A stretch of DNA of 35,595 nucleotides from a virus: positions 1 through 35,595 of the IMG/VR virus record IMGVR_UViG_3300032047_000052; one strand, given 5' to 3'. The notes under the pieces are model-generated. The model was not told the DNA's origin and ran no database searches. It worked only from the letters and a program-made list of their open reading frames with translations. Below, piece by piece: positions 14,395-35,123 of this stretch; positions within the stretch are counted from its first letter, which is position 1, and every line of letters begins with the position of its first letter. The translations under genes and the position numbers were made by a program.

Positions 14395-14727
14395 TTATTT
14401 AAGTTTTTTTCCGATAAAATTCATATCCACTTGAATTGCGTATCCAGCACCTTCATAATTATCAAATGGTACAAACTTTAAAGGTTTCATTCTTTTCATA
14501 GCAAATATTGCTAATTGTTTACAGATATCTCTTTTTGTTGTATCACCGAGTTTATCTATTTTATCTAAGTCCTTAGATGTTTTGGCCATAAAGACAATAG
14601 TATTACCACCACTTGTAGGCGTCATTACCTTAAATTCAGGATATACACTTGGTGATACATTTGGATTTTTATCAGTAGATGTTACTACTATCTTTCCTTC
14701 GTTAAGTATAGATGTAAGTTTTATCAT
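14395..14727 (-). CDS. Candidate internal head protein with (L)xE leader (110 aa)
   Basis: There is no recognised family. The N-terminus MIKLTSILNEGK resembles T4 capsid-targeting leaders (MKTYQEFIAE for internal proteins, MELITELFDE for Alt), which gp21 cuts after Glu in an (L/I)-x-E site. Here LNE would end at residue 10. The remainder (about 100 aa) looks like a small alpha/beta fold, with TIVFMAKTSKDLDKIDKLGD and a basic C-terminus. The ATG overlaps the upstream stop (ATGA), so it is translationally coupled to the modular 485-aa protein. It has no Shine-Dalgarno of its own. A packaged head protein is my inference from leader and position. Confidence 0.55.
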   Translation of the reverse strand: MIKLTSILNEGKIVVTSTDKNPNVSPSVYPEFKVMTPTSGGNTIVFMAKTSKDLDKIDKLGDTTKRDICKQLAIFAMKRMKPLKFVPFDNYEGAGYAIQVDMNFIGKKLK

Positions 14728-17060: not shown

Positions 17061-17840
17061 TTATCTCCTATCGATTAAATCTTTTAATTTTGTTGATGAT
17101 TCGTTTGTATCATCAATAATTCCTTGCAATTTAGCTGCTAATTTTTTACTTCCATTCATTTTCAAATCATATGCTATAGCATCTAATGCAGCAACACCAT
17201 CCCAACCAGATTCACCAGTTGCAGAGTGTGCTAAATCATCAGTACCTTCAGCAGAATCATAGAATGTAGAAGAATATACACTTGTTTTTTGCCACTTTTC
17301 ATATTCAGGTGACATTATATCTGGCATCTTAGGGTCTTTTCTTGGGTCATTCGCCCATTCTGGTTTATCTTCTAATACTGCTATTAGTTTTCTTGCTTCA
17401 GAATGAAAGTTTGCATCAGTTAGAGCTTCAACAGCTGCTTTACTCATTCTACTTTCGTATTCTTCTTTACCTAACTTCTGTGGAGTAATTCCTAAACTTT
17501 GTGCTTTCTTACGAACAACTTTGTTTACTTGAGGATTACCAGGTCTACTATTAGCAGAATCTTTTGGTTCATCCTTTTTAGGTTCATCTTTCTTCGGTTT
17601 ATCAAAGATATTTACTTTAGGTTTATCTTTTTCACCGGCAGAAGAATCACCTCCCTTCGCTGCCTTATCTGAGGTTGGAATATATTTACCACTATCATCT
17701 TTTTTGAATGTAGGAGCATCTTCATCATCTTCCTTACCTTTTTCTTTAAATCTACCAAAACCGATAGATACATATTTGTCATCTTCGGCTTCGTTTAACC
17801 ATTGCGGTTCTAAGTCTATTAATCCACCTAATTTTATCAT
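17061..17840 (-). CDS. Head protein candidate with targeting leader (259 aa)
   Basis: There is no named family. The N-terminus MIKLGGLIDLEPQWLNEAED contains an LNE site at residue 17, similar to the neighbouring leaders. KYVSIGFGRFKEKGKEDDED (about 22-41) is a phrase I recall from marine phage proteins. Residues about 75-105 are a Lys/Pro/Asp-rich flexible linker (repeats of KKDEPK). The C-terminal ~150 residues are folded and partly helical (FHSEARKLIAVLEDKPEW, then WDGVAALDAIAYDLKMNG). The ATG overlaps the protease gene's stop (17837-17840, ATGA), so it is translationally coupled to the prohead protease. No Shine-Dalgarno is visible. Likely a substrate of that protease. Confidence 0.55.
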   Translation of the reverse strand: MIKLGGLIDLEPQWLNEAEDDKYVSIGFGRFKEKGKEDDEDAPTFKKDDSGKYIPTSDKAAKGGDSSAGEKDKPKVNIFDKPKKDEPKKDEPKDSANSRPGNPQVNKVVRKKAQSLGITPQKLGKEEYESRMSKAAVEALTDANFHSEARKLIAVLEDKPEWANDPRKDPKMPDIMSPEYEKWQKTSVYSSTFYDSAEGTDDLAHSATGESGWDGVAALDAIAYDLKMNGSKKLAAKLQGIIDDTNESSTKLKDLIDRR

Positions 17841-18421
17841 GTCAGTTCCGTAATTATTTCTCTTATTAAATTATGTGCTTTACAATAATCTCCACAAACC
17901 TCATTAACCTTCATTTGTTTAGATTCGTTTACTGGAGTCATAAATGCACCATGCGTAGATGGGTTGGATACAAAATCCCAACCTATTAGTTCGAAATCTT
18001 CTCCTACTTCAACCCCACCACCTCTTCTTTGTGATACAGAGCCCATACCTCTTGATGAGATACCTAATAGAATACCAGCTTTCAATAATTCTTTTAGTAT
18101 ATTACCTGATGGTGTTGGGAGTATTTCTACTGTTCCCATTAAGTCATTGCCATCCCAATGTATTTCTCTTATGTTATGTGAAACGTTTTTTAAATTTATT
18201 ACAGAAGATTCAGGATGGTCTAACTCACCCAATGCTCTTCTCTCCTTAATAAGAGTTTCGTATTTCTTAGCTTCTCTCATTAAGATTTGCTTAGGATATA
18301 CTCTCTCATTTTGGTTTGGAGCTTCAGCACGTTGTAAAACACCCTTAACGATAGTTCTACCACTAGCATCTTCATTAATCTTACCTTCGAATAATTGTGT
18401 TTCTATTAATAAATTTTTCAT
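17837..18421 (-). CDS. gp21: Prohead protease (gp21 family)
   Basis: This is a serine protease that matures the prohead by cutting scaffold and capsid proteins. The 194-aa protein has the family's landmarks: VLQRAEAPNQNERVYPKQIL (28-47), His69 in GELDHPE, Ser122/123 in LGISSRGMGSV, and ELIGWDFVSNPSTHGAF (144-160). I start at ATG 18421 (MKNLLIETQLFEG). A TTG nine bases upstream is less likely. The N-terminus has an LFE|G-like self-processing site at residue 12. The start overlaps the stop of the 58-aa gene (ATGA). Upstream reads TTGGGGAGC, a Shine-Dalgarno very close to the ATG. It lies between portal and scaffold as in T4. Confidence 0.92.
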   Translation of the reverse strand: MKNLLIETQLFEGKINEDASGRTIVKGVLQRAEAPNQNERVYPKQILMREAKKYETLIKERRALGELDHPESSVINLKNVSHNIREIHWDGNDLMGTVEILPTPSGNILKELLKAGILLGISSRGMGSVSQRRGGGVEVGEDFELIGWDFVSNPSTHGAFMTPVNESKQMKVNEVCGDYCKAHNLIREIITELT

Positions 18422-18594
18422 GCTCCCCAACTTCTACGTTTTTTAAATAATTCAAAAAATATAGCTGAAACCTCTTGTCTTATGATTCTACGAATTTCCA
18501 ATTCATCAGACGTGGAAATTTCTTCTTTGTATATCCCTAACTTTTCGTTATGGATTTCCTCCTTAACAATTTGCTTCAACTCCTTTAATGTCAT
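18418..18594 (-). CDS. Small core-like protein (58 aa)
   Basis: This gene was found by direct reading. ATG is at 18594 and TGA at 18418-18420 overlaps the protease start by four bases. The product starts MTLKELKQIVKEEIHNEKLG and ends ELFKKRRSWGA. It is a charged helical peptide with an N-terminal half like the next small protein upstream (MKITKERLKEIITDVLKEES). It fills the 167-base gap between that gene and the protease. In T4 the genes between portal and protease encode small prohead core proteins (gp67, gp68). A similar role is suggested by position and size only. The close packing on both sides makes it a credible gene. Confidence 0.68.
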   Translation of the reverse strand: MTLKELKQIVKEEIHNEKLGIYKEEISTSDELEIRRIIRQEVSAIFFELFKKRRSWGA

Positions 18595-20175: not shown

Positions 20176-21900
20176 TTACTCGTCTATAATGTTATTTTCA
20201 TCCAACATATCCGTTTCATGTAAAAATTTCTTTTTAGCCGAAACTCCATTTATTACGGACTTAACTCTAAGTTTAGCTTTTTGTGATTCTTTCTTTAAAG
20301 CTGCTTTTCTTTCTTCATCACCAAGAGGGTCTCTTCCAAAAGGATTTTTATCCTTTTTATAAGTTCCACCTTCACGAGGTCTACCTCCTTTATCTTTGAG
20401 TTCATTTTTTAGTTGTTCCAATGATTCTTCTACATCTTCTGCTTCTTCTTCAACCGCAGGGTCACTACCCTCATCTTCAATAGAACGGAATCTGTATCTA
20501 TCTTTTAAATCATTTAACAAAGTACTTCTTTCTTTTTGACTTTCATCTGTTGAAAGTTTAAAGATATTATCATAAACCCATTCTTTCGATAACATATTTA
20601 ATCCTTGTATGTCTTGAGCTAATCTAATTTTCTCACTCCACAAGTTTACTTTCTCTTGTTCGTAAATTGTAGATGGGTTTACTAATTGTAATTCAAAGTT
20701 AGTTAACCTATCATCACTTATCCCCTGTGAGTATAAATGAACAATTGCAATTTTGGATAATTCTGAAACAACTATTCTTTGTATTCTTTCGATTGTTCTT
20801 GCGAACCTAACATCTTCAGCTGCTAATGTTGCTTTACCATTAACATTCTCATCATATCCTAAATATGCTTTTGGTATTTTAAGTGCAGCAAATAATTTGT
20901 TCTTTAGGTAATCGATATCATCAATTGATGAGTATTCTAATCCACTAAGATTATCTATTTGTGTTCCACTATCACCACCCCTAACTGGTAGATAAAAATC
21001 TTCTGTTAGGTTTTGCATATTATATTTTAAGTTGTAATCACCATTTTTATCAGCGAAAGGAACTTTTTTCATTTTATTGATAATTCTTTGCATATAGTTA
21101 TCCACTTCGTTTGGTGGAATATTACCAATATCAATTTTAAAAACCCTTTTTTCAGGTGCTCTCATTATTCTATGAATTAACATAGCATCTTCCATAAGAG
21201 ATAATTGTTTCCACAATCTTCTACCATTTTCAATCATAGCTTTACCATATGGTAACCAATTAGTATCTGCTAATAATCTAAAATGTGCTATTTCATAGTT
21301 TTCATAATCAACCTTACCCATAGTATCATCTTCTACATGAAATTTTACATAATTTGGGTTTGTTTCATCTGTACCTTCTAATCTTTCAGTATTGTAAACA
21401 GAATATGGGGTTACATTTACGATACCCTTTCCTTCTGCCATTTCTAAACCTAAGAAGAAATCTCCATACTTACATAAGTTTCTTACCCAAGGCCAAAGAT
21501 TGAATTCTATGTTTATTACATCATAGAATAAGTTATTTAATATAGCTCTTACTTCTTCATCTGATGAACGAATTGTTAAGATATCACCATACTCATTTTT
21601 AAGAGTTGATTCATCAGCGTATATATCTAATGCGGATGCTAATATTGGGTCATTATCCATCGCATCGTAATCTCTAAATATTTCTCTACGAACTTGTTGG
21701 TAAGCCATTGATTGTGCTTTACCAGATTGTTCATAAAATGATTTTTGTAATTTTGTATATCTATCTCTAAGTGCGGATAGATTTGTTTGTTGTTTTTCAT
21801 CCGAGTCAACTACTTTGCGCTTACCATCTTTATCAACAGTCACAATTGCTTGTGATGAAAATAGTTTAGTTAACCTACCGAAAAATGAAGTATCTGCCAT
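20176..21900 (-). CDS. gp20: Portal vertex protein (gp20 family)
   Basis: This 574-aa protein is a clear T4 gp20 relative. Landmarks are ALDIYADESTLKNEYGDIL (about 89-107), IHRIMRAPEKRVFKIDIGNI (about 242-261, T4 has RAPERRVFYIDVGNLP), LTEDFYLPVRGGDSGTQID (about 298-316) and LFAALKIPKAYLGYDENV (about 339-356). T4 gp20 is 524 aa. The C-terminal ~100 residues add an acidic-then-basic tail (EEEAEDVEESLEQLKNELKD, then GGRPREGGTYKKDKNPFG). The portal forms the dodecameric DNA channel and nucleates prohead assembly. It starts 31 bases after the previous gene with no good Shine-Dalgarno. Confidence 0.95.
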   Translation of the reverse strand: MADTSFFGRLTKLFSSQAIVTVDKDGKRKVVDSDEKQQTNLSALRDRYTKLQKSFYEQSGKAQSMAYQQVRREIFRDYDAMDNDPILASALDIYADESTLKNEYGDILTIRSSDEEVRAILNNLFYDVINIEFNLWPWVRNLCKYGDFFLGLEMAEGKGIVNVTPYSVYNTERLEGTDETNPNYVKFHVEDDTMGKVDYENYEIAHFRLLADTNWLPYGKAMIENGRRLWKQLSLMEDAMLIHRIMRAPEKRVFKIDIGNIPPNEVDNYMQRIINKMKKVPFADKNGDYNLKYNMQNLTEDFYLPVRGGDSGTQIDNLSGLEYSSIDDIDYLKNKLFAALKIPKAYLGYDENVNGKATLAAEDVRFARTIERIQRIVVSELSKIAIVHLYSQGISDDRLTNFELQLVNPSTIYEQEKVNLWSEKIRLAQDIQGLNMLSKEWVYDNIFKLSTDESQKERSTLLNDLKDRYRFRSIEDEGSDPAVEEEAEDVEESLEQLKNELKDKGGRPREGGTYKKDKNPFGRDPLGDEERKAALKKESQKAKLRVKSVINGVSAKKKFLHETDMLDENNIIDE

Positions 21901-22402: not shown

Positions 22403-23986
22403 TTATCGAATTAACCAGGTCAAATCTTCATCTTCACCATTAATCTTTTGTGACCAAGGGTTGTGGTCGGGTTGATTTCCACCATATACAGCCGTTCCAT
22501 GTGTTGCTTGTCCTATACCACCTAAAGCTTGTTTGGTTAAATCTATCCCCTCTTGTCTTAATCGTAGTGCAGTATCCCTTACCCACAATCCAATTGAGAA
22601 TGCCATAACTAAATCATCATTGTAACCCTTCATTGCTTCAGCACGATTTCCGTTCCATATAAATGTAAATAATTCATCTACTAATCTAGCAGAACGAACT
22701 GTTACTGATTTTTCTCTAAAGTAATCATCTAACTTAGAAATAATAAGTGGTCTTGTTTTAGATGTTGTACTAAATCCAGCTACCATTCCTCTTTCTTCTG
22801 CTCTATATTTGTTATGCAATTGATGTTCTACATCTACATACTTTAAATCTTTACTCATATAAAATAGATTCTTATAATCTCTATCTATTACTTGTTGGAT
22901 TACTGCCCAACCAATATTAGCGTTTTCAACTACAAGTAAAGCGTTATTATATTCGGTTGCCAATGCTACTAAAAAGTTTCCAAAATCTTTTGTATCTAAT
23001 TTACCTTTATATTCTGCTACCTGTTCAGCTAACTCTACATCCATAACGTGACATGCTGAATAATCTCCCCCATCTCCCCTAGCGACATCCGCTACTATCA
23101 TATATGATTTGTTATAATCTGGATATTGCCATTTCCAAAGGTTTCCATCGAATCCTGTTTTTTCTAATGGTTCTTGACAATAAGTTTCTTTGTAAAATTG
23201 TAAAAGTTGTGGTTCAATTACAGTATCACCTGAAGATACGAAATCACAATCACATTCTTGAGCCGCTCCTTTTGCTCCTAATAGTGTTTCTTGTTCATCT
23301 CTCCAACTTTGGTCTCTTTCAGGATGTACACTCCAATGTAATCTTATTGTATTAAATGAGTTAGTTTCATCTTCCGCACCTACCCAAGTTTTGTGAAAGA
23401 AATTACCCACACCATTTGGTGTAGAAAGTATAATTGCGTTACCACCCGTTGATAATGTAGATTGTGCTGATATCCAAATCTCTTCAATGTTATCAATAAA
23501 AGCGGCTTCATCAAATACCAAAAGAGATAGTGCTTCAGAACGACCAGCATCACCACTTGAAGATGTTGCTTTTATCTGAGAACCATTTGAGTATCGAAGG
23601 GATAGTTTGTTATCCTCTACTGTTGTTTGTTTTAACCAAGATGGTAAGTTTTCATTCATATACCTCACCTTAGTTACTAAGTTCTTAGCTACCTCTTGTT
23701 TAGTTGCGATTACCAAACAATTAAAATCATTGTTAAATAACATTTTCCAAAGAGAAAACCCCGCAGTTAAGGTTGAGATACCTGTTTGTCGAGATTTAAG
23801 GATGATGTTGTATCTTTCTTTATCAAATTCTGTAAGTGTTTTTTCTTGAAATGGATATAAGTGAAATGGAATCCTACCCCTAACAGGATGTTGAATCATA
23901 CAATACTTTTTCATAAAGTAGATTGGGTCTTTAGAACACTTTACATATTCTAACTTTATAATATCCTTTAAGGATTGCTTAGCCAT
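22403..23986 (-). CDS. terL: Terminase large subunit (gp17-like)
   Basis: This is the DNA-packaging motor: an N-terminal ATPase with a C-terminal RNase H-fold nuclease. The 527-aa protein shows a Walker A-like SRQTGIST (65-72), Walker B LLVFDE (155-160), the coupling motif ILSTPNG (186-192) and nuclease acidic residues Asp300 (VAD), Glu354 (VVEN) and Asp457/458 (YNDD). The Walker A lacks the usual Lys after Gly (Ile70 instead). Arg66 may serve, as in other deviant viral motors. It ends LTWLIR, a usual short motif at the end of T4-like terminases. T4 gp17 is 610 aa. The ATG follows the membrane-protein stop without a gap. Confidence 0.95.
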   Translation of the reverse strand: MAKQSLKDIIKLEYVKCSKDPIYFMKKYCMIQHPVRGRIPFHLYPFQEKTLTEFDKERYNIILKSRQTGISTLTAGFSLWKMLFNNDFNCLVIATKQEVAKNLVTKVRYMNENLPSWLKQTTVEDNKLSLRYSNGSQIKATSSSGDAGRSEALSLLVFDEAAFIDNIEEIWISAQSTLSTGGNAIILSTPNGVGNFFHKTWVGAEDETNSFNTIRLHWSVHPERDQSWRDEQETLLGAKGAAQECDCDFVSSGDTVIEPQLLQFYKETYCQEPLEKTGFDGNLWKWQYPDYNKSYMIVADVARGDGGDYSACHVMDVELAEQVAEYKGKLDTKDFGNFLVALATEYNNALLVVENANIGWAVIQQVIDRDYKNLFYMSKDLKYVDVEHQLHNKYRAEERGMVAGFSTTSKTRPLIISKLDDYFREKSVTVRSARLVDELFTFIWNGNRAEAMKGYNDDLVMAFSIGLWVRDTALRLRQEGIDLTKQALGGIGQATHGTAVYGGNQPDHNPWSQKINGEDEDLTWLIR

Positions 23987-24694
23987 TTACTTTTTCTTCT
24001 TAAATGAAAGTTTCCAATACATAGAACCACCTATAAATGGTGTAACATCGTTATTTGAATTTAGTACACCCAAGTTTAATCCAAAAACTTTATTTTGTTT
24101 ATCTTTGTATAAAATTCCAAAGTTTGCACTTTGAATAAAATCAGTTTTATTGAAAGCACCACCAAATCCGTAATATAATTCTCTTTTAGGTAACTCTTTT
24201 ACTATCTTTGTATTATAGATTGTTGGAATCTGAAAGTTCCATTCTATTTTTCTACTTAGAATTCTATTTTGTGATATTGTATCTGTAAGAAACCCAAAAC
24301 CTAAAGATGGGTTTGGTTTTGTTCCCAGTGAATCAATTGTTATTTCAGGTCCAAAATCATATGTTAGATTCAAAGTATCTGTTACAATATATTTTGCGTA
24401 ATAATCTTCAACTACTTTTAAAGAATCAACATCAGCTGGAACTTCTACAGTAACTGTTTCTACTTTGGTAATATATTTTGGTACATACTTTGGAACTTCA
24501 ATTACTTTTTCAACAAATACAGTATCTACTTTTTGTTCCAATAGTTCATAGTCTTTTCCATCCACCTTTACTATATCTTTCGGGTCTATGGATGAATCTC
24601 CACTACATGCTCTCATTAATAGTATAACAACTATCAATCCTACTATTAGTATCTCCTTGAAATACTTTCGTAGTATGCTAAAGAATATGCTCAT
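23987..24694 (-). CDS. Membrane-anchored protein, possible spanin-like (235 aa)
   Basis: Residues about 14-28 (EILIVGLIVVILLMR) form one N-terminal membrane segment after a short basic stretch. A Cys follows at residue 30. The next part has repeated VDTVFVEKVIEVPKYVPKYI (about 56-75) with alternating Val/Glu/Lys residues, then a beta-rich C-terminal half with YYGFGGAFNKTDF and VFGLNLGVLN, ending WKLSFKKKK. Such N-terminally anchored VDTV...VPKY proteins are familiar from Bacteroidota phages. They may help lysis (spanin role) or sit in the envelope, but no function is proven. The start overlaps the upstream stop by 17 bases. No holin or endolysin is visible in the window. Confidence 0.5.
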   Translation of the reverse strand: MSIFFSILRKYFKEILIVGLIVVILLMRACSGDSSIDPKDIVKVDGKDYELLEQKVDTVFVEKVIEVPKYVPKYITKVETVTVEVPADVDSLKVVEDYYAKYIVTDTLNLTYDFGPEITIDSLGTKPNPSLGFGFLTDTISQNRILSRKIEWNFQIPTIYNTKIVKELPKRELYYGFGGAFNKTDFIQSANFGILYKDKQNKVFGLNLGVLNSNNDVTPFIGGSMYWKLSFKKKK

Positions 24695-25343
24695 AATTTT
24701 TATCTTTTATTTTATCAAATGCTTTGTTACGCTTTTTTGATATTTCTTCTATTTCCTTTTTACCTCGTTTGATGAAATCTTTCATTTCTTTTTTCATCTC
24801 ATCTACTGGTCTTGGTAGTACATAAGAATTCATTACATTCCCATCTTCACCGATTTCATCATATTGTTGTTTTAGATTTTCAATATCTTGCTCTATTAGG
24901 TCTAATTTTATCAAACCTTCTGCAATCATATTACCATAAATCTTATATTCTTGATAACTATCCCAAACTCCATTGATTCTGAGTTCTCTTTCTAAGATTT
25001 TATTACAATCTATACACCAACCTGTTTTTTGTATTAGTTTTCTATTGGTTGGTCCGAAATCACCCTCATGTTTACAATTATTGTTTTTACATTCACCTAA
25101 ATCCTTCAAGTATTTTCTTACTTGTTGTAAAGCATCTGAGTTTTTACCCGTTTTTAGGATATACCCATCTTTTTTTTCAAATTTATGGTGTTCCGTTTCC
25201 CAAACATCTCCAACTTCTCTATTTTCTTCTGCTTTGGTGTATCCTAATTGAGTACTCTTTTCATACTCACCAGTTTGAACCATATCTGCCAACTTTCTAC
25301 GAGTTGGATGCATAAATTTCCGTTTGAATTCCTTTTGTGCCAT
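24678..25343 (-). CDS. Zinc-binding coiled-coil protein, terminase-region (221 aa)
   Basis: I know of no functional name. Four Cys arranged as C85-x4-C90 and C110-x2-C113 (ECKNNNC, GWCIDC) suggest a zinc ribbon. The N-terminal part (KFMHPTRRKLADMVQTGEYE) is basic and is followed by WETEHHKFEKKDGYILKTGK. The C-terminal ~75 residues are a charged coiled coil (IEQDIENLKQQYDE, then EMKKEMKDFIKRGKKEIEE). It is encoded two genes before the large terminase, near where T4 has gp16, the small terminase. A DNA-recognition packaging role is therefore possible but only positional. AAGG is about 7 bases before ATG 25343. Confidence 0.5.
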   Translation of the reverse strand: MAQKEFKRKFMHPTRRKLADMVQTGEYEKSTQLGYTKAEENREVGDVWETEHHKFEKKDGYILKTGKNSDALQQVRKYLKDLGECKNNNCKHEGDFGPTNRKLIQKTGWCIDCNKILERELRINGVWDSYQEYKIYGNMIAEGLIKLDLIEQDIENLKQQYDEIGEDGNVMNSYVLPRPVDEMKKEMKDFIKRGKKEIEEISKKRNKAFDKIKDKNYEHIL

Positions 25344-25407: not shown

Positions 25408-28400
25408 TTAGAAGAAAATACCCAATATTTGATTTACAGAAGCAAATGTACCTGTAAGTTTAAAGGTATTTCCTTTGTATTGAAACACAATACCTTCATT
25501 TGGTACAATCTTTTTAGCTCCACCGATAGAATTTAATCTTTTTAGTTCTAATTTAAGTTTTTCTATCTTCTTTGGGTCACCTGATTTTTTCACATCTTTA
25601 ATTGTCTTATCAATCCTTTTCTTTATATCACGAATTGCTTTATCTGGATTGACTGTTAGTGCTGATGATGTGAATTCCAACACTTCTGCTCCTAAACCTA
25701 AGAATATTTCTTCAAACTTCATTAAGTTCTTTTTACCAATCTTCTTTTGGTCATCTTTATCTGTTTTTTTAGCCCATTCCAATGTTTTTTCATCAGTAAT
25801 GTTCTTTTTATCTAATCTAAACTTCTTATCAAAGAATGCCCATCTCTTAACTAACCCCATTTTGGTTTTGTTATCAAGTGTTGATGGTGAATTCTTATCA
25901 ACCCATTGTTCCCACCACGCTTGGTGATAGTTTGCAACACCATCGGTATCTTTTAAACTAAATTCTTTTTGTAGTTTAGATATCTTTGATGAATACTTAT
26001 TACGTTTTTTAGATAAATCAGCTGATTTAGGTAGTTTTACAACAGGTGGTCCTTGAATAGTGTAATTATCTTGTACATCTTTGTTAACTTGCTTAATCAT
26101 ACCCGCCAATACTCTAGCAGCTTCAGTATTTTCACCGATTGCGATTCCCTCATCATTATATTCCATAGTTCCATGAAATACAAGTAAAGCTTGTCCGTAT
26201 GCAATCACATTAACTGATGTTGGATATATCACCTCAAGGTTCATAAAACATGCACCTTCTTTAAATACCTTATTTCTCTGTTTATCTGAAAGAGATGAGA
26301 TAGCTTTGGATAAATCCTTCATAGCAAAATTATAAGCATCACTCAATCCACCTCTTCCTTGAAACTTATCCGATACTCCCTTTATATCCAAAGCATTCTC
26401 ACCTTTATTTTTTAAATGTCCTTTGTTTCTAGCAGCAACTAATCTACCTTCTCTCCAACTAACTGCTAATGCTTGTCCATCTGTTTTCTCTCTTGTGAAC
26501 TCAAGTGTACCTTCTAAAGCACGATTTACGATATCTTTAAGCTGTCCAAATGTTAAATTGATATCAGTATCAAATGGATGAGACATATGTCCATAGGCAC
26601 CACCTTCTGTAAGTATTGATTCCCTTACTACTCTATCCTTTTTTAGTAATCCATGCAATTCTCTACCATCTGCTTCTTTACCAAATCCTTTACCAATTTG
26701 TTTTTTCCAAAGTAATTCTAAAAAGTCCTTTTTTTGTTTTGGTGATAATCCTTTTAATTTTTGATTGATTTGTTTTCTGTTTTTATAAACATACTTTTTG
26801 AAATCCATATAAAAGAAATCATTAACTTCCTTTATAGTATCGTATTGATATTCTTTATTAGAATCTGTATTTTTTCTTTGTTTATCCAATCTTTGATGGA
26901 TTTTCTTCATATCTTCTTTACCAGGATATCCAATAGCCAATGATTCATCTGTTCCACCAAATTTTTCTGCTTCTTTTGCTCTTAACGCTGGTAAGAATCT
27001 AAACTTTGCTCTTTTTCTAACTCTTCCTTTTTTTCTTAATACATTTTTATGAACTACTTTAGCTTGTTGGATTGATAACTCTGATTTCTTTTTACCAGGA
27101 AATAAATCCTTCATAAACTCATCATAAACTTGTAGATATGCTTTTTTGTACGCAATCTTTTTAAGTTTAGCAAGAGGTTTTTTTCTTTTCATTGTTCTTT
27201 TTCTTCTTCTTGCTATAGCAGCTCGTTTACCAGCCATCGCTGCTTTTCTTCGTAAAAGGTCAGCGGGTCTTAATCTCCCCTTACTTTCATCTTGTGGCAT
27301 ATCTTCAGGAAACTCTACTTCCATTTGTTCTTTAACAAGTCGGAAAGTTACAACTTTTCTTCCATTGATAGTAGGCATCCCATGCTCATCTTTTCCAATT
27401 GATTTAACAACTGTCTTTTTATTCTTAAATCTACCAGTCATAATAGTATCTCCCACTTTAACAGGTAGTACAATATTTTCATTTAGAGATGCTTCAAATT
27501 CTTGCTCTAATTCTTTAGCTCCCCTTGCATCATCAGTAGATTCTTCCTTATCATCTTGATTAATCCCTAACCCTCTAACAACTTCATATCCTACTAATGC
27601 AGCTGTACGAGTTACGTGAGTAAACCATTTAGAATAAGCATTAGATGAATAGATATCAACTTGGTTGTTAGCGGTGGTTGTTCCAATTACACCAGCAGGA
27701 AAATAAGATACTGAAGTTTGTGGTCCTTTTGGGTATTCTGGATGTTCGTAGTAATCTTCAAATTTTTCATCACTTAACATATTGATTACACTCCACCCCA
27801 GCTTAGCTGCTCTATCTACTGATAATTTTTTGTATAGTTTGTGATTTGGTACAAAGAAATTTGGTCCATCATCTACATCTGCTCCAGTACTACTACCAAA
27901 TGAAGCTTCGTTAATTATATATTCTTCTATTCTTTCTTTGGGAACAAATAATCCTTCCGAAAGTTTATCAGTTACGAACTTAAAAATTGTTTTATTGAAT
28001 TTATTGTAAGCTCTATCTTTAAAGAACTTTTCTTTTTGTTCATCTGAACCCATTGATAATCCATTACGAACTTCAGTACCACTTACTGCACCACCTTGCA
28101 TTGGTGCTATATAAAGGTATCCCGCATCTTCATATCCTTCGGTTGGGTTACCATCCCATTTTCTAAAAAATTTACCATCTAATCTACTAGCATCTTTTTG
28201 TCCAACAACAGTTACAAATGCCGTTGTTTTTTTATTAAATCGTTTAAGTACTTCGGTTGGTACATACGGATTTTTGACTTGTACGATTTTGGATTTTGGG
28301 ATTCCAAACATCGTTGTCATAATTTTTACCTTTTCTTTGAAGTTAAAAGGTGAACGACCTTTTTCTGTTTTGTTAGATGTTCCGATAAATACATCAGATT

Positions 28401-28548
28401 TTCCAAATTTCTTTTGAAGATGTTCAAATGTTTTGTAGTGTCCTTTGTGCATGGGTTGAAATCTACCAGCGTAAACTACTACTACTTTTTTGATATTTGA
28501 TTCTTCTAATAGAATCTGTTGTACTAAATGATTACTAAGTTCGCTCAT
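25408..28548 (-). CDS. Nucleotidyltransferase + ligase-like modular protein (1046 aa)
   Basis: Residues about 20-200 are a cytidylyltransferase-like (NMNAT-type) domain with GRFQPMHKGH (28-37, the HxGH site) and VSGTEVR (155-161). Residues about 215-345 are a separate region. Residues about 358-407 resemble a small beta domain (VKVGDTIMTGRFKNKKTVVK). Residues about 420-535 are extremely basic (LLRRKAAMAGKRAAIARRRK). Residues about 649-850 look like a nucleic-acid ligase-type nucleotidyltransferase: K688-T-D-G691 (KxDG), then RNKG, then FMNLEVIYP with E772. I recall this C-terminal family as DUF6267 in marine phages. Boundaries fall at IINE|A (214), SLNE|N (357) and ILTE|G (648), sites that suit prohead-protease cutting. 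GAGG is nine bases before ATG 28548. Confidence 0.7.
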   Translation of the reverse strand: MSELSNHLVQQILLEESNIKKVVVVYAGRFQPMHKGHYKTFEHLQKKFGKSDVFIGTSNKTEKGRSPFNFKEKVKIMTTMFGIPKSKIVQVKNPYVPTEVLKRFNKKTTAFVTVVGQKDASRLDGKFFRKWDGNPTEGYEDAGYLYIAPMQGGAVSGTEVRNGLSMGSDEQKEKFFKDRAYNKFNKTIFKFVTDKLSEGLFVPKERIEEYIINEASFGSSTGADVDDGPNFFVPNHKLYKKLSVDRAAKLGWSVINMLSDEKFEDYYEHPEYPKGPQTSVSYFPAGVIGTTTANNQVDIYSSNAYSKWFTHVTRTAALVGYEVVRGLGINQDDKEESTDDARGAKELEQEFEASLNENIVLPVKVGDTIMTGRFKNKKTVVKSIGKDEHGMPTINGRKVVTFRLVKEQMEVEFPEDMPQDESKGRLRPADLLRRKAAMAGKRAAIARRRKRTMKRKKPLAKLKKIAYKKAYLQVYDEFMKDLFPGKKKSELSIQQAKVVHKNVLRKKGRVRKRAKFRFLPALRAKEAEKFGGTDESLAIGYPGKEDMKKIHQRLDKQRKNTDSNKEYQYDTIKEVNDFFYMDFKKYVYKNRKQINQKLKGLSPKQKKDFLELLWKKQIGKGFGKEADGRELHGLLKKDRVVRESILTEGGAYGHMSHPFDTDINLTFGQLKDIVNRALEGTLEFTREKTDGQALAVSWREGRLVAARNKGHLKNKGENALDIKGVSDKFQGRGGLSDAYNFAMKDLSKAISSLSDKQRNKVFKEGACFMNLEVIYPTSVNVIAYGQALLVFHGTMEYNDEGIAIGENTEAARVLAGMIKQVNKDVQDNYTIQGPPVVKLPKSADLSKKRNKYSSKISKLQKEFSLKDTDGVANYHQAWWEQWVDKNSPSTLDNKTKMGLVKRWAFFDKKFRLDKKNITDEKTLEWAKKTDKDDQKKIGKKNLMKFEEIFLGLGAEVLEFTSSALTVNPDKAIRDIKKRIDKTIKDVKKSGDPKKIEKLKLELKRLNSIGGAKKIVPNEGIVFQYKGNTFKLTGTFASVNQILGIFF

Positions 28549-28739: not shown

Positions 28740-30188
28740 TTACAATAAAGTACTGTAATCATGTTTAATTAATTTATTTACTTCTGAATGATACTTTGCG
28801 TAATATGATTTTATATCTACAAATGAATCTAAGTGTTTACTATTATGTTTCAAAATCGGGTTTACATTATGCATCCATTCTAATTTTTCTTCATCAGATT
28901 TATTACAAAGTAATTTAACTTGTTCTAAAATTAAATTAAATCTTTTTTCTGGTGATGGTTCTTTATCATATGATTCATCTATATATGGTTCAAATGTTTT
29001 GAATCCCATTTTTTTCAAATGTTCTAATGTACCCACACTACCAAAAACTATAAATGGATGATTATGTCCTAATGGTTTTACTACCTTTTCTGAAATATAG
29101 TATTCATTGGGTAGTACTGTTGTTTCGGTAACTAATGAAAACATAGAATCTTCATATACAGATGCTCTTTCGTGATTGATTCCAAATAAAGTTTGTAAAT
29201 CATCATAATCATAAGTTTTCTTTGGTTTGTTTTCGTACAAATGTAATAAAGAATCTTTTAAAGGTTTAAAATTATAAATGTGATTGTGGGCAATATCAAA
29301 CTCTGTTAATTCAACTATATGTGGAATATTTTCTGATATAGTAAAATCATATGTTACAATATTCTCATCTAATAATCCTTCTTTTTCTAAAACTGCCAAA
29401 GTATATAATCTATGTGTTCTTAATCTTCTATTTAAACAATTAAAATTATATTTTTTTATTTCTACATTGTAATCAGTATTGATATGTTTAATTAGCTCTT
29501 TAGTTGGGTAGTCTTTATTACTCTTCCAATTATAATCTTTTTTGTAATTATCAAATTCCGAAGATTTGGTTTGCCAAACCCAGCTATGATAAACTACTTT
29601 TATTTTTTGAGTAATTCCATAGTTTCTACAAAATTGAGCATACCAATCATCTATATTGTGTCCTCCAAATGATAAAATACATTTTTCTGCAGGTATTTCT
29701 AACTTATGTAATGATTCATGCATATCCCTTAGATGAAAGTATTCTACAATACCTTCTTGAAAATAATTTAACATTATGGATATATTACTATTTTTTTTAA
29801 TAGCATTTAATGTTTTTGTAGGAATCAAATCTAAAACATTATTTTTATTTATAACATGCCCCATTCCATCACCTTCACCACTTTTTTCTTTAGCAGGAAA
29901 TGCATTACCAATACCACCATACATATCTATTCTATAAATGTACTCTTTATTATCTATTGTATTTCCGTTTTCATCTAAGATATCAAAAATTCTATTAAAT
30001 GTAGATTTTTTTACATCACATATTCTATTTCTATCAATACACCAAACACCCGGTTGGTTTACATCTGGATTAGCTGATTCAAATATTTTATACTCCTCTA
30101 TAGTATTTTTTTGAAATGGTGGATATGATTCAAAATCCCATGCATTCATAAATTTACCTTTGAAAAGATAATCGGATACAAAGTTCAT
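28740..30188 (-). CDS. Glycosyltransferase-like protein (482 aa)
   Basis: Shared features with the next gene upstream are FNCLNRRLRTHR (about residues 245-256) and a C-terminal motif VTETxxxxNEYYISEKVVKP, then HPFIVFGS, then GFKTF and DESYD. The (I/V)SEK...KP...PF segment resembles the nucleotide-sugar-binding YVTEK motif of fucosyltransferase-like (GT10 type) and related GT-B enzymes. No signal peptide or membrane segment is obvious, so it probably acts in the cytoplasm. It starts one base after the upstream stop without a Shine-Dalgarno and is the last gene of the sugar cassette. It presumably transfers a sugar to a phage or host glycan; the acceptor is unknown. Family named by motif resemblance only. 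Confidence 0.65.
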   Translation of the reverse strand: MNFVSDYLFKGKFMNAWDFESYPPFQKNTIEEYKIFESANPDVNQPGVWCIDRNRICDVKKSTFNRIFDILDENGNTIDNKEYIYRIDMYGGIGNAFPAKEKSGEGDGMGHVINKNNVLDLIPTKTLNAIKKNSNISIMLNYFQEGIVEYFHLRDMHESLHKLEIPAEKCILSFGGHNIDDWYAQFCRNYGITQKIKVVYHSWVWQTKSSEFDNYKKDYNWKSNKDYPTKELIKHINTDYNVEIKKYNFNCLNRRLRTHRLYTLAVLEKEGLLDENIVTYDFTISENIPHIVELTEFDIAHNHIYNFKPLKDSLLHLYENKPKKTYDYDDLQTLFGINHERASVYEDSMFSLVTETTVLPNEYYISEKVVKPLGHNHPFIVFGSVGTLEHLKKMGFKTFEPYIDESYDKEPSPEKRFNLILEQVKLLCNKSDEEKLEWMHNVNPILKHNSKHLDSFVDIKSYYAKYHSEVNKLIKHDYSTLL

Positions 30189-30189
30189 A

Positions 30190-31599
30190 TTAAAATAGTG
30201 TTTGCGTTAAAGATTTTTTTGGAATTATTAATGCATTTAAATACTTTTCAAAAGTTTTATTATAATCTTGTATGGGAAATGATTTAAAATGCTCATAGTT
30301 AAAATTAGCTATTTTAGCCGATTCAAACATAAATCCTTTTTTATCTTCTTCGGATAGATTACATAAATGTAAAATTTGCTCCATTGCCATCACATATCTT
30401 TTGTATGGGTCTTTTTCCGTATCATACGATTCATCCAAAAATCCAGTTTCTCCATATGTTTTAAATCCCCAATGTTGTAAATGTGCTAAGACATTTACAT
30501 TCCCAAAGATTATAAATGGATGTTTGTGTATTATTGGTTTCCATATTTTTTCTGAAATATATCCTATATTTTGATTTTCAAAGAAGTAAGATTCTGCTAC
30601 AACTGTAAACATAGAATCTTTATAGGGAATATCGGTTTCCATACCTATACCCTTTACGCCAATTATATCATCGTAATCAACTGTTTGTTTGGGTTTTTGT
30701 TTTCTAATTTTTTTAAATCTTCTCCACTCTGTATCTTTATTCTTAGGATTTATTTTTTCAATATAATTATAGTAATCGTTATCACTCGTATCGGGTTGAT
30801 TTAAATCATAAGATATTTGATTTTTATGTAGTAAACCCAATTTATCAAAATCTAATAGAAGTTTAGTTCTTAGCGGTCTTAATCTTCTCATTAAACAATT
30901 GAAATCATATTTTTTTATTTCATCAAACTCGTAATGTTCATTTAGTTGTTGATTTGAAAACCCAGAATACTTTCCCATATTTACAAACATTGGAAAAGAC
31001 CATAGATATGGAATTACAGTAAACCTCTCCATTGGTTCATCTAATTCTAATTCTTTTTGTTTTTTTGAAATCCAATCATTATACCAATGAAATATATTAT
31101 AATTAGCATTTACCAATATGAACTGAAAAAATGGGATACTATTTTGAACCCATTCATTTATATTTGATATTTCGTTATCTTCAATTAGCCCCTCCGATGA
31201 AAAGTTTAGTAGTATAAAAATATTAGGATTTTTATTAGCCATTTCTATTATCTTGTTTGGGATTTTATCTAATAAAAAATCATCTTTATTTCCAAATGCG
31301 TTTTCTGCATTCGAATATACACAAACTTCATATAATAGTATAGAATCTTTATAATCTTTTGGTTTTCTTAAATATTCATATGAGGATATAGTTTTATATT
31401 TATCTCTCAAAAACTGCATTTTATTATCAAACGATTTCGGAGGTTTTTTTAAATTCCTTTCATATGAATCTATATATTTAAACTGAGATTTGTAAAAATT
31501 ATTATTACTATCCCAATACGGATACTTCTCCCAATCTAAACTATTGGAGATATCATATTTACCACATTGATAATCGTTAAGAAAATAAATTTTATGCAT
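30190..31599 (-). CDS. Glycosyltransferase-like protein (469 aa)
   Basis: I start at ATG 31599 (MHKIYFLNDYQCGKYD). A TTG 21 bases upstream would overlap the neighbour more and has no ribosome binding site. The protein has FNCLMRRLRPLRTKLLL in the middle and a C-terminal block IGYISEKIWKPIIHKHPFII, then GFKTYGE and DESYD, the same motif order as the 482-aa paralogue. The two proteins are similar in length and layout, so they likely arose by duplication and diverged. The ATG overlaps the stop of the transketolase-like gene by eight bases. The donor sugar cannot be read from the sequence, though the neighbouring epimerases may supply it. Confidence 0.65.
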   Translation of the reverse strand: MHKIYFLNDYQCGKYDISNSLDWEKYPYWDSNNNFYKSQFKYIDSYERNLKKPPKSFDNKMQFLRDKYKTISSYEYLRKPKDYKDSILLYEVCVYSNAENAFGNKDDFLLDKIPNKIIEMANKNPNIFILLNFSSEGLIEDNEISNINEWVQNSIPFFQFILVNANYNIFHWYNDWISKKQKELELDEPMERFTVIPYLWSFPMFVNMGKYSGFSNQQLNEHYEFDEIKKYDFNCLMRRLRPLRTKLLLDFDKLGLLHKNQISYDLNQPDTSDNDYYNYIEKINPKNKDTEWRRFKKIRKQKPKQTVDYDDIIGVKGIGMETDIPYKDSMFTVVAESYFFENQNIGYISEKIWKPIIHKHPFIIFGNVNVLAHLQHWGFKTYGETGFLDESYDTEKDPYKRYVMAMEQILHLCNLSEEDKKGFMFESAKIANFNYEHFKSFPIQDYNKTFEKYLNALIIPKKSLTQTLF

Positions 31600-32137
31600 A
31601 ATATAGTTCAGGATATTCAACTAACACAGTTGGTCCTCCTCTTTGTAGAGCTTCCGTATATGCTGGTATTATTTTTTCTGCTTTATCTAATTTTTCAACA
31701 GGTGTGTGTTTTAACATTTTCCTAAACTCTTCTGTATAATCTGCTTTATGTTGATGACCAGGGTCTAATGGTTTATCTGAACCCTTTCCTACTCTAATTA
31801 ATAAACTTGGATTCCATTCTCCATCAGACATGATACGAATCTTATCTATATGGTTTATTAATTGATTAGCTGCACATATTACGAAATCCCATCTTGGATA
31901 GAATGATACAACAGAATGACCAGCCATCCCTAACCCCAATGTCATTCCCATTTGGGTTTCTTCCATTACTGGTGTTTCTATCATTCGTTCTTTTGGTAAC
32001 CCTTCTATGGTTTTACTCATCGGATTTCCATAATAAACTATTTGTTGTCCGATGAATATCATATTTGGGTCATCCATACAAAGTTTCATAGCTTCGGTTA
32101 AAGCATCTAAATAAGGTGTGTATTCTGGTTGTGCCAT
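31592..32137 (-). CDS. Transketolase/PDH-E1-beta-like pyrimidine domain alone (181 aa)
   Basis: This is a thiamin-diphosphate enzyme half. Features typical of the pyrimidine-binding domain of transketolase and pyruvate dehydrogenase E1 beta are ETPVMEETQMGMTLGLGMAG (54-73, with the Glu that contacts the cofactor aminopyrimidine), an IRVGKGS strand and GHQHKADYTEEF (127-138). It lacks the C-terminal domain of E1 beta, and no pyrophosphate-binding partner gene is in the window. It may pair with a partner encoded to the right or by the host. Split transketolases in polysaccharide loci make or rearrange unusual sugars. It is one base overlapped with the epimerase gene (TAATG) and eight bases with the next glycosyltransferase. 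Confidence 0.75.
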   Translation of the reverse strand: MAQPEYTPYLDALTEAMKLCMDDPNMIFIGQQIVYYGNPMSKTIEGLPKERMIETPVMEETQMGMTLGLGMAGHSVVSFYPRWDFVICAANQLINHIDKIRIMSDGEWNPSLLIRVGKGSDKPLDPGHQHKADYTEEFRKMLKHTPVEKLDKAEKIIPAYTEALQRGGPTVLVEYPELYYA

Positions 32138-33120
32138 TATGGTTTTGAATTTGGGTTAAACTGGTCTTTATTTTCTTTATACCATCTTAGTGCATCCTTT
32201 AATCCACTTTCTAAATCATACTTAGGTTTCCACCCTAAAGATTTTAGTTTGGTATTATCTAATAATCTTACTGGTATCATAGGTGCTTTGTTATTAACAA
32301 ATTCAATTGGATTATCATTACCTTCTAATTTTTTCAATAAGTTAAGAACCTCCATAACAGTATATCCTTCACCATAGCAAACGTTGTAGATATCATATGT
32401 ATCAACTTTTTCAGCAACTGTGATAAATCCACTAACCATATCATCTACATGGATAACATCTCTTACCTCAGTACCATCACCCCAAAGTGGGATTGGATTT
32501 AAATTATCTGCTACCTTTCTAATATTAGCAGGTGTAACGTGACACTTTTCAAAATCAAATTTGTCATTTGGTCCAAATGCATTTGAAGGTCTGATGATTA
32601 CACACTGCATAGGGTCGTGAATCTGATTTGAGAAGAAATCACAAAGTGTTTCACAATATCGTTTCATCCAACCAACTGCTTTATAAACAGGTACGATATC
32701 TGGTGTTTGTACTTCCATATCTTCCGTACAAGGAACATCTCCCATATCTGGATATGTTGTATTTGAAGATATAAACATAAACTTACGAACTTTGTTTCTC
32801 CAACTCTGTTCCATAAGATTTACATTCATTTCAATATTTGGAGTAACGTGCAGTAATGGATTGAATTTGGTATCAAGTGCATTTGATGTGTTAGCTGCAC
32901 AGTGGAATATAACATCAACATCTTTTGAAATTAAATCACAAAAAGGTGCATCTTGCAAATTACCTTTTATAAATTCAACACCCTTAAAGTTTTCTCTTAA
33001 AGTTCTACTAAATGAGGTTGCTCTTAAATTAGTGTAACCCGCTTCATAAAGGGATTTTACTAATCTTGAACCGATGAATCCAGCGGCTCCTGTAACTAAA
33101 ATTTTATCTGTTTTTTTCAT
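32137..33120 (-). CDS. NAD-dependent sugar epimerase/dehydratase (SDR, 327 aa)
   Basis: This extended short-chain dehydrogenase has a Rossmann motif GAAGFIG (11-17), CAANTS (74-79), Ser118/119 in FISSNTTYPD, RPSNAFGPND (177-186) and a typical C-terminal LRWYKENK. It would act on a nucleotide-sugar (GDP- or UDP-linked). The usual YxxxK active site is not standard: in VYKAVGWMKR the Lys is 153 but the residue four before it is Val149, with Tyr at 146. It starts ten bases after the previous gene. It probably makes a sugar precursor for the glycosyltransferases beside it. Reaction cannot be assigned. Confidence 0.82.
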   Translation of the reverse strand: MKKTDKILVTGAAGFIGSRLVKSLYEAGYTNLRATSFSRTLRENFKGVEFIKGNLQDAPFCDLISKDVDVIFHCAANTSNALDTKFNPLLHVTPNIEMNVNLMEQSWRNKVRKFMFISSNTTYPDMGDVPCTEDMEVQTPDIVPVYKAVGWMKRYCETLCDFFSNQIHDPMQCVIIRPSNAFGPNDKFDFEKCHVTPANIRKVADNLNPIPLWGDGTEVRDVIHVDDMVSGFITVAEKVDTYDIYNVCYGEGYTVMEVLNLLKKLEGNDNPIEFVNNKAPMIPVRLLDNTKLKSLGWKPKYDLESGLKDALRWYKENKDQFNPNSKP

Positions 33121-33130
33121 TGTTTATAAT

Positions 33131-34174
33131 TTATATTAAGTTTTCATTACTTTCATCAAGTATAGGTTTTTTAAGAATTGGAAGTGTATCCCATATCTCT
33201 AATATTTTTTTTCTATTTTCTTTTGCTTTTTTAAAATCACCACTGTATTTATCTTTTAATTCTGATAAAGGTGTTTTTGATATTTCTATAATTTTTTTCT
33301 GTACTTGTTTTATATTAGTTGGATTTAATTTGTGTACTTTATCATACTCTATTCCAAAGTAATTAAAATCAATTCCCATTAGATTATTGAATGTTGGATA
33401 CAGATTAATCATATTATTATTATGTAATAAAAATGGAGTACCCATTAGTAGTGGTTTTAATATTTTTTCTGTTATCATATTTGGACCTGATTCTACTACT
33501 ATTTCAATTGCACATTCCGAATAGTATTTATTTAATGCATCTGATTCATATAACCACTCTTTCCTCTGAGAAACGTTATCCAACCAGTTCTTTGATTTAT
33601 CCAAACGTATTCCCTTCCACAAAAATGATGATAGTGATTGTTCATTAACTTTTGGATATTTTTGAAAAAAATTAAAAAGTTCTTCTCTTTCCCTTTTACC
33701 TATATTATTTAATGTTAAAAAGTGATATTTTTTATCAATTGAACCAAAATCTATATCTCTTAGTTTATTAACAAGTGGTTTTATTGAATCAATTACTTGT
33801 GTGCCTGGATAATAATTTGTCTTATCACCATATGATTCTGTATTCCATATTTTTATATTTGGAACTTCAACCAATATATTATAAAATTCATTATAAATAT
33901 CATTACCATCCAAATCAAAATCAGAATAAACATCAGATGGGTAAAAGTTTATCTTATATTCATCATTAACTGCCAATCTTGTTAAATACTGTCCCTCCCA
34001 AGATAATAAAAATCGCTTAACACTATGCATATCTTCATATTGAATGTTAATAGGATTTGGTAAATCAGTAGTACACCCCATAATTAAAGGTGTTTTTTGA
34101 TTTATCAAACTCTTTCGAATTCTTCTATTACTATGATATAGGAGTTCTATATGAATATTATCCTTTGAATTCAT
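33131..34174 (-). CDS. Glycosyltransferase-like protein (347 aa)
   Basis: It has the family's C-terminal block (IEIVVESGPNMITEKILKPL, then GTPFLLHNNN) and a middle HFLTLNNIGKREREELFNFF segment that is like the FNCLxRRxRxHR part of the paralogues but less exact. It lacks the GFKTF...DESYD ending, replaced by FNNLMGIDFNYFGIEYD. It may represent a more divergent member. The ATG overlaps the upstream epimerase stop by 17 bases, so the pair is probably co-translated. There is no signal peptide. Role in cytoplasmic transfer of a sugar is inferred. Confidence 0.58.
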   Translation of the reverse strand: MNSKDNIHIELLYHSNRRIRKSLINQKTPLIMGCTTDLPNPINIQYEDMHSVKRFLLSWEGQYLTRLAVNDEYKINFYPSDVYSDFDLDGNDIYNEFYNILVEVPNIKIWNTESYGDKTNYYPGTQVIDSIKPLVNKLRDIDFGSIDKKYHFLTLNNIGKREREELFNFFQKYPKVNEQSLSSFLWKGIRLDKSKNWLDNVSQRKEWLYESDALNKYYSECAIEIVVESGPNMITEKILKPLLMGTPFLLHNNNMINLYPTFNNLMGIDFNYFGIEYDKVHKLNPTNIKQVQKKIIEISKTPLSELKDKYSGDFKKAKENRKKILEIWDTLPILKKPILDESNENLI

Positions 34175-35123
34175 TTAAATAATAATCTATTGTTTCTTTT
34201 AATCCTTCTCTTAAAGATACTTGTTGAATCACTCCGAAAGATTCTGCTCTTTCTGTACTCATCAATCTTTTTGCATCTCCATTTGGTTTAGTACTATCCC
34301 ATTCGATACCTACTTTCTTATCATACATCTCTTCATAGATATCTACAAGAGTTTCAGCAAGTTCTCTAATAGTAACACCAGTACCACTACCTAAGTTGAT
34401 TGGTTGTGTTAATTTTTGTTCATATGCTTTTATGATTCCATCAGCAACATCACCAGCATAAATAAAATCTCTGATTGGTGAACCATCTCCCCAACAAATT
34501 AGTGGATGTTCTTTTTCACCGAATAATCTTTTGATAAGTGATGCGATTACTGTTGATTCTGGTCCGAAGTTATCATGTCTACCATAAATGTTTGCTGGTC
34601 TTACAACTGATGCCTTATTCCAATCGAATGATACTGAATATACTTCAGCTTGTAGTTCACCCAATCTCTTAGCCCATCCAGCATACTTATCTTTTTCTGA
34701 TGGGAATGTTTTCCATACATCATCTTCGTAGAATACTTCAGCTGGTTGATAAACTCCAACTGTCGATGTGTAAACATACCACTCAACATCTTCTAATCGA
34801 GCCGCCTCCATCATATTAGTATTGAATTGTAACATCGGTACAAAGTAATCAGCAGGTTGCTCAGCTGCTCTCTTAGGTGAACCCTTTACACCTGCAATAT
34901 GGAATATAATATCTTGTCCTTCAACAACTCTTTTACAATTTTTAAATTCTCTTAAATCTGCATTGATGAATTGATAGTTTTCATCTTTATATTTTTCTAT
35001 TTGGTTATTTGGTTGTTTGATATCAACCGCAGTTACGAATGCACCTCTATCGATACACTTTTGAACCATATAGTTACCAACCAATCCATTGGCACCTGTT
35101 ATCAAAACCTTTTTATTTTTCAT
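34158..35123 (-). CDS. NAD-dependent sugar epimerase/dehydratase (SDR, 321 aa)
   Basis: The Rossmann motif GANGLVG (10-16), HIAGVKGS (75-82), TSTVGVYQ (119-126), RPANIYGRHDNFGPES (175-190) and GDGSPIRDF (212-220) put it in the extended SDRs, closest by eye to GDP-fucose-synthase-like enzymes (NFGPES and similar). The catalytic signature reads KYAGWAKR: Lys152 is preceded at -4 by Ala148, and the Tyr (147) is one place earlier than the canonical YxxxK. It overlaps the partial glycosyltransferase gene by four bases (ATGA) and the next gene by 17. Likely supplies an activated deoxysugar to the neighbouring transferases. Confidence 0.82.
   Translation of the reverse strand: MKNKKVLITGANGLVGNYMVQKCIDRGAFVTAVDIKQPNNQIEKYKDENYQFINADLREFKNCKRVVEGQDIIFHIAGVKGSPKRAAEQPADYFVPMLQFNTNMMEAARLEDVEWYVYTSTVGVYQPAEVFYEDDVWKTFPSEKDKYAGWAKRLGELQAEVYSVSFDWNKASVVRPANIYGRHDNFGPESTVIASLIKRLFGEKEHPLICWGDGSPIRDFIYAGDVADGIIKAYEQKLTQPINLGSGTGVTIRELAETLVDIYEEMYDKKVGIEWDSTKPNGDAKRLMSTERAESFGVIQQVSLREGLKETIDYYLNEFKG

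Follow-up and report, generated by a model that had tools for sequence, protein, structure and literature searches.

We examined a 35,595-nt stretch of DNA from a marine T4-like phage (IMG/VR record IMGVR_UViG_3300032047_000052, positions 1 to 35,595), referred to here as the window, and in particular a gene at 25408-28548 that encodes a modular protein of 1046 amino acids. All features of the window described below lie on the minus strand. The gene is a single open reading frame, and an intact copy on a separate contig (L001) is 95% identical to the window protein. An initial annotation, made from the letters without database searches, had read the protein as a fusion of two enzyme domains. 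This part stood, while the prohead protease gene in the same window and the family of modular polyproteins to which the protein belongs had been missed. From the N- to the C-terminus the chain consists of a putative leader, a nucleotidyltransferase module (A), modules B1 and B2, a basic region (C) and a domain that is likely RNA-ligase-like (D), with candidate prohead-protease sites between them.

Module D (residues 649-1046; 25411-26604) is a predicted RNA-ligase-like nucleotidyltransferase. Motif I, E687-K688-T-D-G691 (26476-26490), contains K688, the lysine predicted to be adenylated. KTDG at residues 688-691, RNKG at 707-710 and the strand CFMNLEVIY with E772 follow one another in the order of ligases, as the initial annotation had proposed; it had overlooked motif IV, PNEGIVF with E1018, and motif V, FKLTG (1029-1033) with K1030. 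Motifs I, Ia, III, IV and V, the signature of the covalent nucleotidyltransferase superfamily, are present in order and conserved. E687-K688-x-D-G, R707-N, E772, E1018-G-x-V and K1030-x-T-G are invariant in 32 diverse relatives with identities down to 36%, and motif I reads EKTDG or EKLDG in 239 of 240 sequences. The domain is under strong purifying selection, with a ratio of nonsynonymous to synonymous substitution rates (dN/dS) of about 0.07-0.11 against three relatives.

The structure of D was predicted with AlphaFold2 from an alignment of the window with IMG/VR and GTDB loci (predicted local distance difference test, pLDDT, 85.5; predicted template modelling score, pTM, 0.80). The motif residues fall on or between the expected strands, and about 180 residues of helices are inserted between motifs IIIa and IV. 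In the comparison with ligases that the initial annotation had called for, RNA ligases ranked first: Naegleria Rnl gave the top match in the Protein Data Bank (PDB), with Z 8.3 and a root-mean-square deviation of 4.3 over 188 residues, followed by T4 Rnl1 (Z 7.9), T4 Rnl2 (7.2) and fungal Trl1 (7.1). DNA ligases and capping enzymes reached Z 5-6.5. D resembles T4 Rnl1, Naegleria Rnl and fungal Trl1 in its predicted nucleotidyltransferase core and motif order, but differs from them in the helical insertion and in having no detectable sequence match to them. Ten members of D gave no match to the Pfam RNA ligase families PF09414 and PF09511, nor did either family match the D-containing record L011. 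From its motifs and model, D is likely an RNA-ligase-like enzyme without an earlier name.

We also weighed a role on DNA, in which the chain would be packaged and cut as described below, D would seal nicks to repair or circularise the injected genome, and A and the other modules would be unrelated to RNA. D and the DNA ligases have the nucleotidyltransferase core in common (T4 DNA ligase and human LIG1, both Z 5.0), and a DNA ligase could be wanted, since PF01068 was matched in only 1 of 10 D-bearing records tested and gave no match in the other nine. However, RNA ligases are consistently the better matches (Z 7-8.3 versus 5-6.5), and the CCA-adding and HD modules that accompany D in relatives point to RNA. 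Moreover, the protein ends 13 residues past FKLTG and so has no room for the C-terminal OB domain with motif VI that marks DNA ligases and mRNA capping enzymes. A DNA function is therefore unlikely. The capping-type enzyme that the initial annotation had offered as an alternative became less likely and was dropped, because that space is missing and capping enzymes rank below RNA ligases.

Module A (residues 17-198; 27955-28500) is an NMNAT-like HxGH nucleotidyltransferase. Its motifs GRFQPMHKGH (residues 28-37) and VSGTEVR (155-161), from which an NMNAT/cytidylyltransferase type had initially been proposed, were found in place, and the module matches Pfam CTP_transf_like (PF01467) with E = 2.1e-8 and 34.9 bits against a gathering cut-off of 21. 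It shares the HxGH and SGTxxR motifs of this superfamily but falls far below every NMNAT equivalog cut-off (TIGR01527, 26.9 bits versus 181). Archaeal NMN adenylyltransferases are its closest matches among solved structures, but the equivalog scores are low, and we therefore describe A as an NMNAT-type HxGH transferase. In L166, L238 and other relatives, which form a deep branch, GPHH stands where the rest have HxGH, a replacement that possibly changes the chemistry. The closeness of A to NMNAT families would also suit an NAD/ADP-ribose unit, in which A makes NAD against NAD-depleting defences and D applies its lysyl-nucleotide step to a small molecule or protein. Virion-packaged NAD-ADPr enzymes have been proposed for myoviruses (PMC9503650), and 2 of 10 records contain a NAPRTase-family gene that passes the cut-off. 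We consider such a unit doubtful, given the low equivalog scores of A, the lack of an NAD-ligase Ia domain in D and the CCA module of relatives, which does not fit NAD metabolism.

The prohead protease of T4, gp21, cleaves after L/I-x-E (PMC9026906). In the window protein, putative sites of this kind (↓ marks the presumed cut) are INE↓A after residue 214 (27904-27915), LNE↓N after residue 357 (27475-27486) and LTE↓G after residue 648 (26602-26613), with further (I/L)xE sites at 15/16, 198, 209, 574 and 806. The initial annotation had named the first three; its positions were exact, and its placement of them at domain edges holds across the family. Across 83 distinct polyproteins, the stretches between modules contain [ILM]xE[AGSN] at 20.6 times the density found in the modules themselves, a ratio that, like those that follow, is descriptive because the sequences are related. 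In the same test [ILM]xD, [ILM]xK and [ILM]x[QR] before small residues gave 0.4-1.3, [VFYWA]xE gave 1.8, and [KRDENQST]xE and the reversed motif each gave 2.3. Shuffling was also measured independently of the module list, by local-alignment breakpoints. These fall within 8 residues of the motif at 3.24 times the frequency expected from coverage, compared with 0.6-1.0 for the controls with D, K or Q/R, 1.5 for the reversed motif and 2.1 for [FYVW]xE. At the junction before D (120 distinct sequences), P3 is only L or I, P2 is free, P1 is Glu in 116 and P1′ is Gly in 119. This pattern looks like that of a protease site rather than a fold constraint.

A candidate protease is encoded nearby. The gene at 17837-18430 specifies a Peptidase_S77 prohead protease of the T4 gp21 type (E = 4.3e-29), the presumed processor of the chain, and lies on the same strand as the polyprotein gene in a T4-type head cluster. 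The cluster also contains a T4-type portal protein (20176-21900), the terminase large subunit (22403-23986), which is a conserved downstream neighbour of the polyprotein gene, and a gp23-type major capsid protein (11184-12806) that has an LDE↓A site at residue 61; 65 residues are removed from the N-terminus of T4 gp23 (PMC9958956). The acidic protein encoded at 12834-13946, which contains several (I/L)xE↓A sites, is, by position and composition, a putative gp22-like scaffold. The terminase gene lies 3′ of the polyprotein gene, on the same strand and at a median of 1.4 kb, in 179 of the 183 loci with enough sequence, and in Microcystis phage Mel-JY01 a fusion of A and D lies upstream of the terminase, prohead protease and capsid genes. 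At the sequence level, the chain thus carries (I/L)xE sites at its module borders and is accompanied by an S77 gene in the head cluster, as expected of a gp21-type substrate. Immediately after the polyprotein gene, 24678-25343 encodes a 221-aa protein (MHPTRRKLxDMVxTGEY...) with paired Cys; homologues occur downstream in 123 of the 183 loci, making it a conserved partner. A homologue of ribosomal protein bS21 (PF01165, 3.8e-14) is encoded at 14116-14388, between the prohead protease and capsid genes, and Mel-JY01 has one in the same place.

Residues 1-16 of the window protein, MSELSNHLVQQILLEE (28501-28548), end in an LxE site and form a putative capsid-targeting leader by analogy with T4. Similar N-terminal leaders occur across the relatives. 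In L095, L099 and L111, D is a gene of its own of 414 amino acids that starts MIRLxKxLxEVLLxE↓GGAYGHM; this separate gene in some relatives begins MIRLKKLLSEVLLNE↓GG, a targeting-peptide-like leader, and a jumbo-phage copy (L155) begins MKFLKSYEEFLNENLILE↓GG. These leaders resemble the capsid-targeting leaders of T4 (PMC9026906). The leader of the separate D genes also recurs inside the fused chains L028, L049 and L100, which suggests that leadered genes were joined in frame. In L111, two separate genes (L111:3-915) immediately precede the stand-alone D gene: one is a segment containing HFFDRLNDPRN, elsewhere an internal module, and the other encodes a small protein with MIKLTDLLSE near its start. 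In the window itself, the head-cluster proteins encoded at 14395-14727, 16183-17058, 17061-17840 and 17837-18430 start with leaders that look like the capsid-targeting sequences of T4, for example MIKLTSILNE↓G and MKLIDILNE↓S.

The sites, the synteny and the leaders bear on the view that the protein is simply a fused enzyme of the cytoplasm, produced late in infection, whose linkers contain (I/L)xE motifs by coincidence. In favour of this view, the linkers are somewhat rich in Glu, as the 2.3-fold enrichment of [KRDENQST]xE[AGSN] indicates. The 20-fold enrichment is, however, specific to I, L or M at P3, the junction before D has a free P2 and a fixed P1, the gene is syntenic with head genes, and separate genes have targeting-like leaders. 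We consider a cytoplasmic enzyme very unlikely.

Between A and D, module B1 (residues 215-357; 27478-27906) has a fold without assignment and follows A in most relatives. The small module B2 (residues 358-410; 27319-27477) is also present in other module orders and in jumbo phage LR756502. Region C (residues 421-640; 26629-27288) is variable and basic; the very basic stretch that the initial annotation had noted between the two domains is borne out by 40 K+R versus 10 D+E in residues 421-540. Neither the B modules nor the basic region carries an enzyme signature, which would fit a structural or scaffold protein built of retired enzyme domains, cut in maturation, with most fragments leaving the head. 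T4 offers a precedent in gp22, gp67 and gp68, which are largely lost after they have been cut (PMC9958956). Against such an origin, nearly all members retain the catalytic residues of D and, outside the GPHH branch, those of A; D has a dN/dS of about 0.1, and it also exists alone as a small protein. We give a scaffold role little credence.

Scanning IMG/VR with the whole protein gave 134 relatives, and scans for relatives of D gave at least 584 stretches and, for a second branch, 304; a jumbo-phage copy (L082) used as query against viral contigs found no relative. Complete chains range from 414 to 2463 amino acids, apart from one outlier of 244, and the relatives are mostly polyproteins of 760-2463 amino acids. 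D is at the C-terminal end throughout, preceded by a middle that ranges from almost nothing to >1500 amino acids. The A-B1-D architecture is found in 16 of the 83 distinct chains; others have up to about 12 modules. Shuffled among the relatives upstream of D are a CCA-adding nucleotidyltransferase, an HD phosphohydrolase, a P-loop kinase and a zinc ribbon, with Pfam matches to PolyA_pol (CCA-type) down to 1.5e-29, to HD at 3.4e-7 and to a P-loop kinase at 1.5e-8. The solved structures nearest to the CCA module are CCA-adding and poly(A) enzymes (about 1e-27), that nearest to the HD module was deposited as a poly(A) polymerase and is a weak match (E about 1e-3), and the kinase module had no sequence match in the PDB. 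The CCA module matches the class II catalytic head and is accompanied by an HD module like CCA-adding enzymes, but head and HD are separate modules here, in either order and with cut motifs between them; the window protein has no CCA module. Some relatives contain, by motif only, a metallopeptidase-like HELVH module and ParB-like modules, and an MPT-like module occurs in just 5 of 241 chains. No peptidase family matched the window protein. Some D-bearing phages encode conventional RNA ligases elsewhere in the genome, together with up to 28 tRNAs, so D may be their delivered, immediate counterpart. A 907-aa protein of the cultured Flavobacterium phage immuto_2-6A (L389:3132-5855) is similar in concept, combining, by eye, a Pol-beta-like motif, an NMNAT-like domain and a HEMIHH metallopeptidase motif.

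A parallel pairing exists in cyanophages. DUF6267 (PF19782, phrog_455) has no assigned function and is present in 468 phage records. Its invariant residues include K48-W-D-G-A-P, G117-D, V-F-H, P-E-G-x-V and K373. Its motif order (KWDGAP, GxLQGDL, VFH, PEGxV, KxV) and a helical insertion resemble those of D, as does its pairing with an HxGH transferase. The DUF6267 model has a pLDDT of 78.6; Foldseek against the PDB put no ligase near the top, and a second look with VIA-align ranked RNA ligases first (Z 7.1). Two cyanophage queries yielded 146 cyanophage-type loci; in 138 of these DUF6267 is paired with an HxGH transferase, as a neighbouring gene in 83 and within one fused protein in 55. In the S-PM2 fusion the ligase-like part comes first, the reverse of the order in the window. 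Where the transferase is a separate protein, it often begins like MRFLDFIKE↓A or MLTFHVFITE↓A. That two lineages pair these proteins in different arrangements argues for a shared function. The D model found the S-PM2 fusion protein as a structural match in BFVD (E 8.8e-5), which suggests common descent of D and DUF6267. We do not claim this from sequence: DUF6267 was not among the Pfam matches of D, and a profile-profile comparison with hhalign, made with shallow profiles, was not significant. A ‘putative citidylyltransferase (T4-GC190)’ was reported in S-SM1 virions (Sullivan et al. 2010; PMC3037559); T4-GC190 could not be mapped to the HxGH family, and the report is only suggestive.

Taken together, we consider it probable that the window protein is a head-packaged polyprotein that is cut by the prohead protease and delivers enzymes of RNA-end (perhaps tRNA) repair together with nucleotide enzymes. 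This is in line with the initial annotation, which had suggested a packaged enzyme set freed during maturation. The N-terminal leader would bring the chain into the prohead core, where the S77 protease would cut it after (I/L)-x-E at the module borders and free A, the small modules B1 and B2, basic segments of C and the C-terminal D. We infer that the freed enzymes would remain inside the head and pass into the host along with the DNA. D, probably adenylated at K688, would then seal RNA ends, and A would supply NAD or another adenylated nucleotide. Because D shares its chain with CCA-adding, HD-phosphohydrolase and kinase modules in relatives, the likeliest role would be immediate repair of RNA, plausibly tRNA, that host defences have cut or trimmed.

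Several points weigh against this proposal. Foldseek matches of the D model in the PDB had E-values of 0.02 or worse, so the fold assignment rests on motifs and structural ranking jointly, and a Z of 8.3 is close to values reached by models that have no clear match. Searching D by profile against Pfam, PHROGs and PDB sequences brought up nothing beyond chance matches, and no named ligase family. The enrichment figures make significance look greater than it is, since the relatives cannot be counted as independent. The recognisable enzymes of the window protein are A and D; it lacks CCA, HD and kinase modules, so the RNA-repair role rests on relatives, whose modules may act on other substrates. 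No virion proteomics was found for this phage group.

Packaged multi-enzyme proteins and gp21 processing are already known. Like the polyvalent proteins of Iyer et al. 2017 (PMC5512222), which are large multi-enzyme chains near late genes proposed to be packaged and injected, the window protein joins several enzymatic domains in one chain linked to late genes. Release of the polyvalent proteins was proposed to occur by an embedded metallopeptidase, whereas the (I/L)xE sites here fit a trans-acting S77 prohead protease, and we did not find a description of the RNA-ligase-like end domain there. T4 Alt and IPI-III are head-internal proteins with a short targeting leader that are cut by gp21 after (I/L)xE and injected, and the window chain can be likened to them. 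In these single-function proteins it is mainly the leader that is removed, whereas the window chain has several enzymes with sites between them and its packaging is inferred. Our searches of open-access text turned up no earlier account of an unnamed RNA-ligase-like family fixed at the end of a modular chain whose modules are separated by prohead-protease sites.

Other genes of the window lie outside this subject. Directly upstream of the polyprotein gene, 28740-35123 contains sugar-type genes, including two for NAD-dependent epimerases, a partial transketolase-like domain and two proteins that by eye look like glycosyltransferases. A 1305-aa protein with cadherin domains (2.8e-13), encoded at 3709-7626, is probably a tail or adhesion protein.

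For the family as a whole we tentatively suggest, with somewhat less than even confidence, that the heads of T4-like marine phages carry an exchangeable RNA-repair kit, produced as a single polyprotein that the prohead protease cuts, with an undescribed RNA ligase family fixed at the C-terminus and CCA-adding, HD, kinase and NMNAT-like cargo, by which tRNAs that host defences have destroyed would be repaired from the start of infection. A CCA-adding enzyme borne in the virion might counter defences that clip the tails of tRNAs. The finding also suggests a reading for DUF6267 and, if true, would assign a probable type of enzyme to a domain that has no name and occurs in >580 IMG/VR stretches, and would reveal a capsid-protease-driven polyprotein strategy in bacterial viruses.

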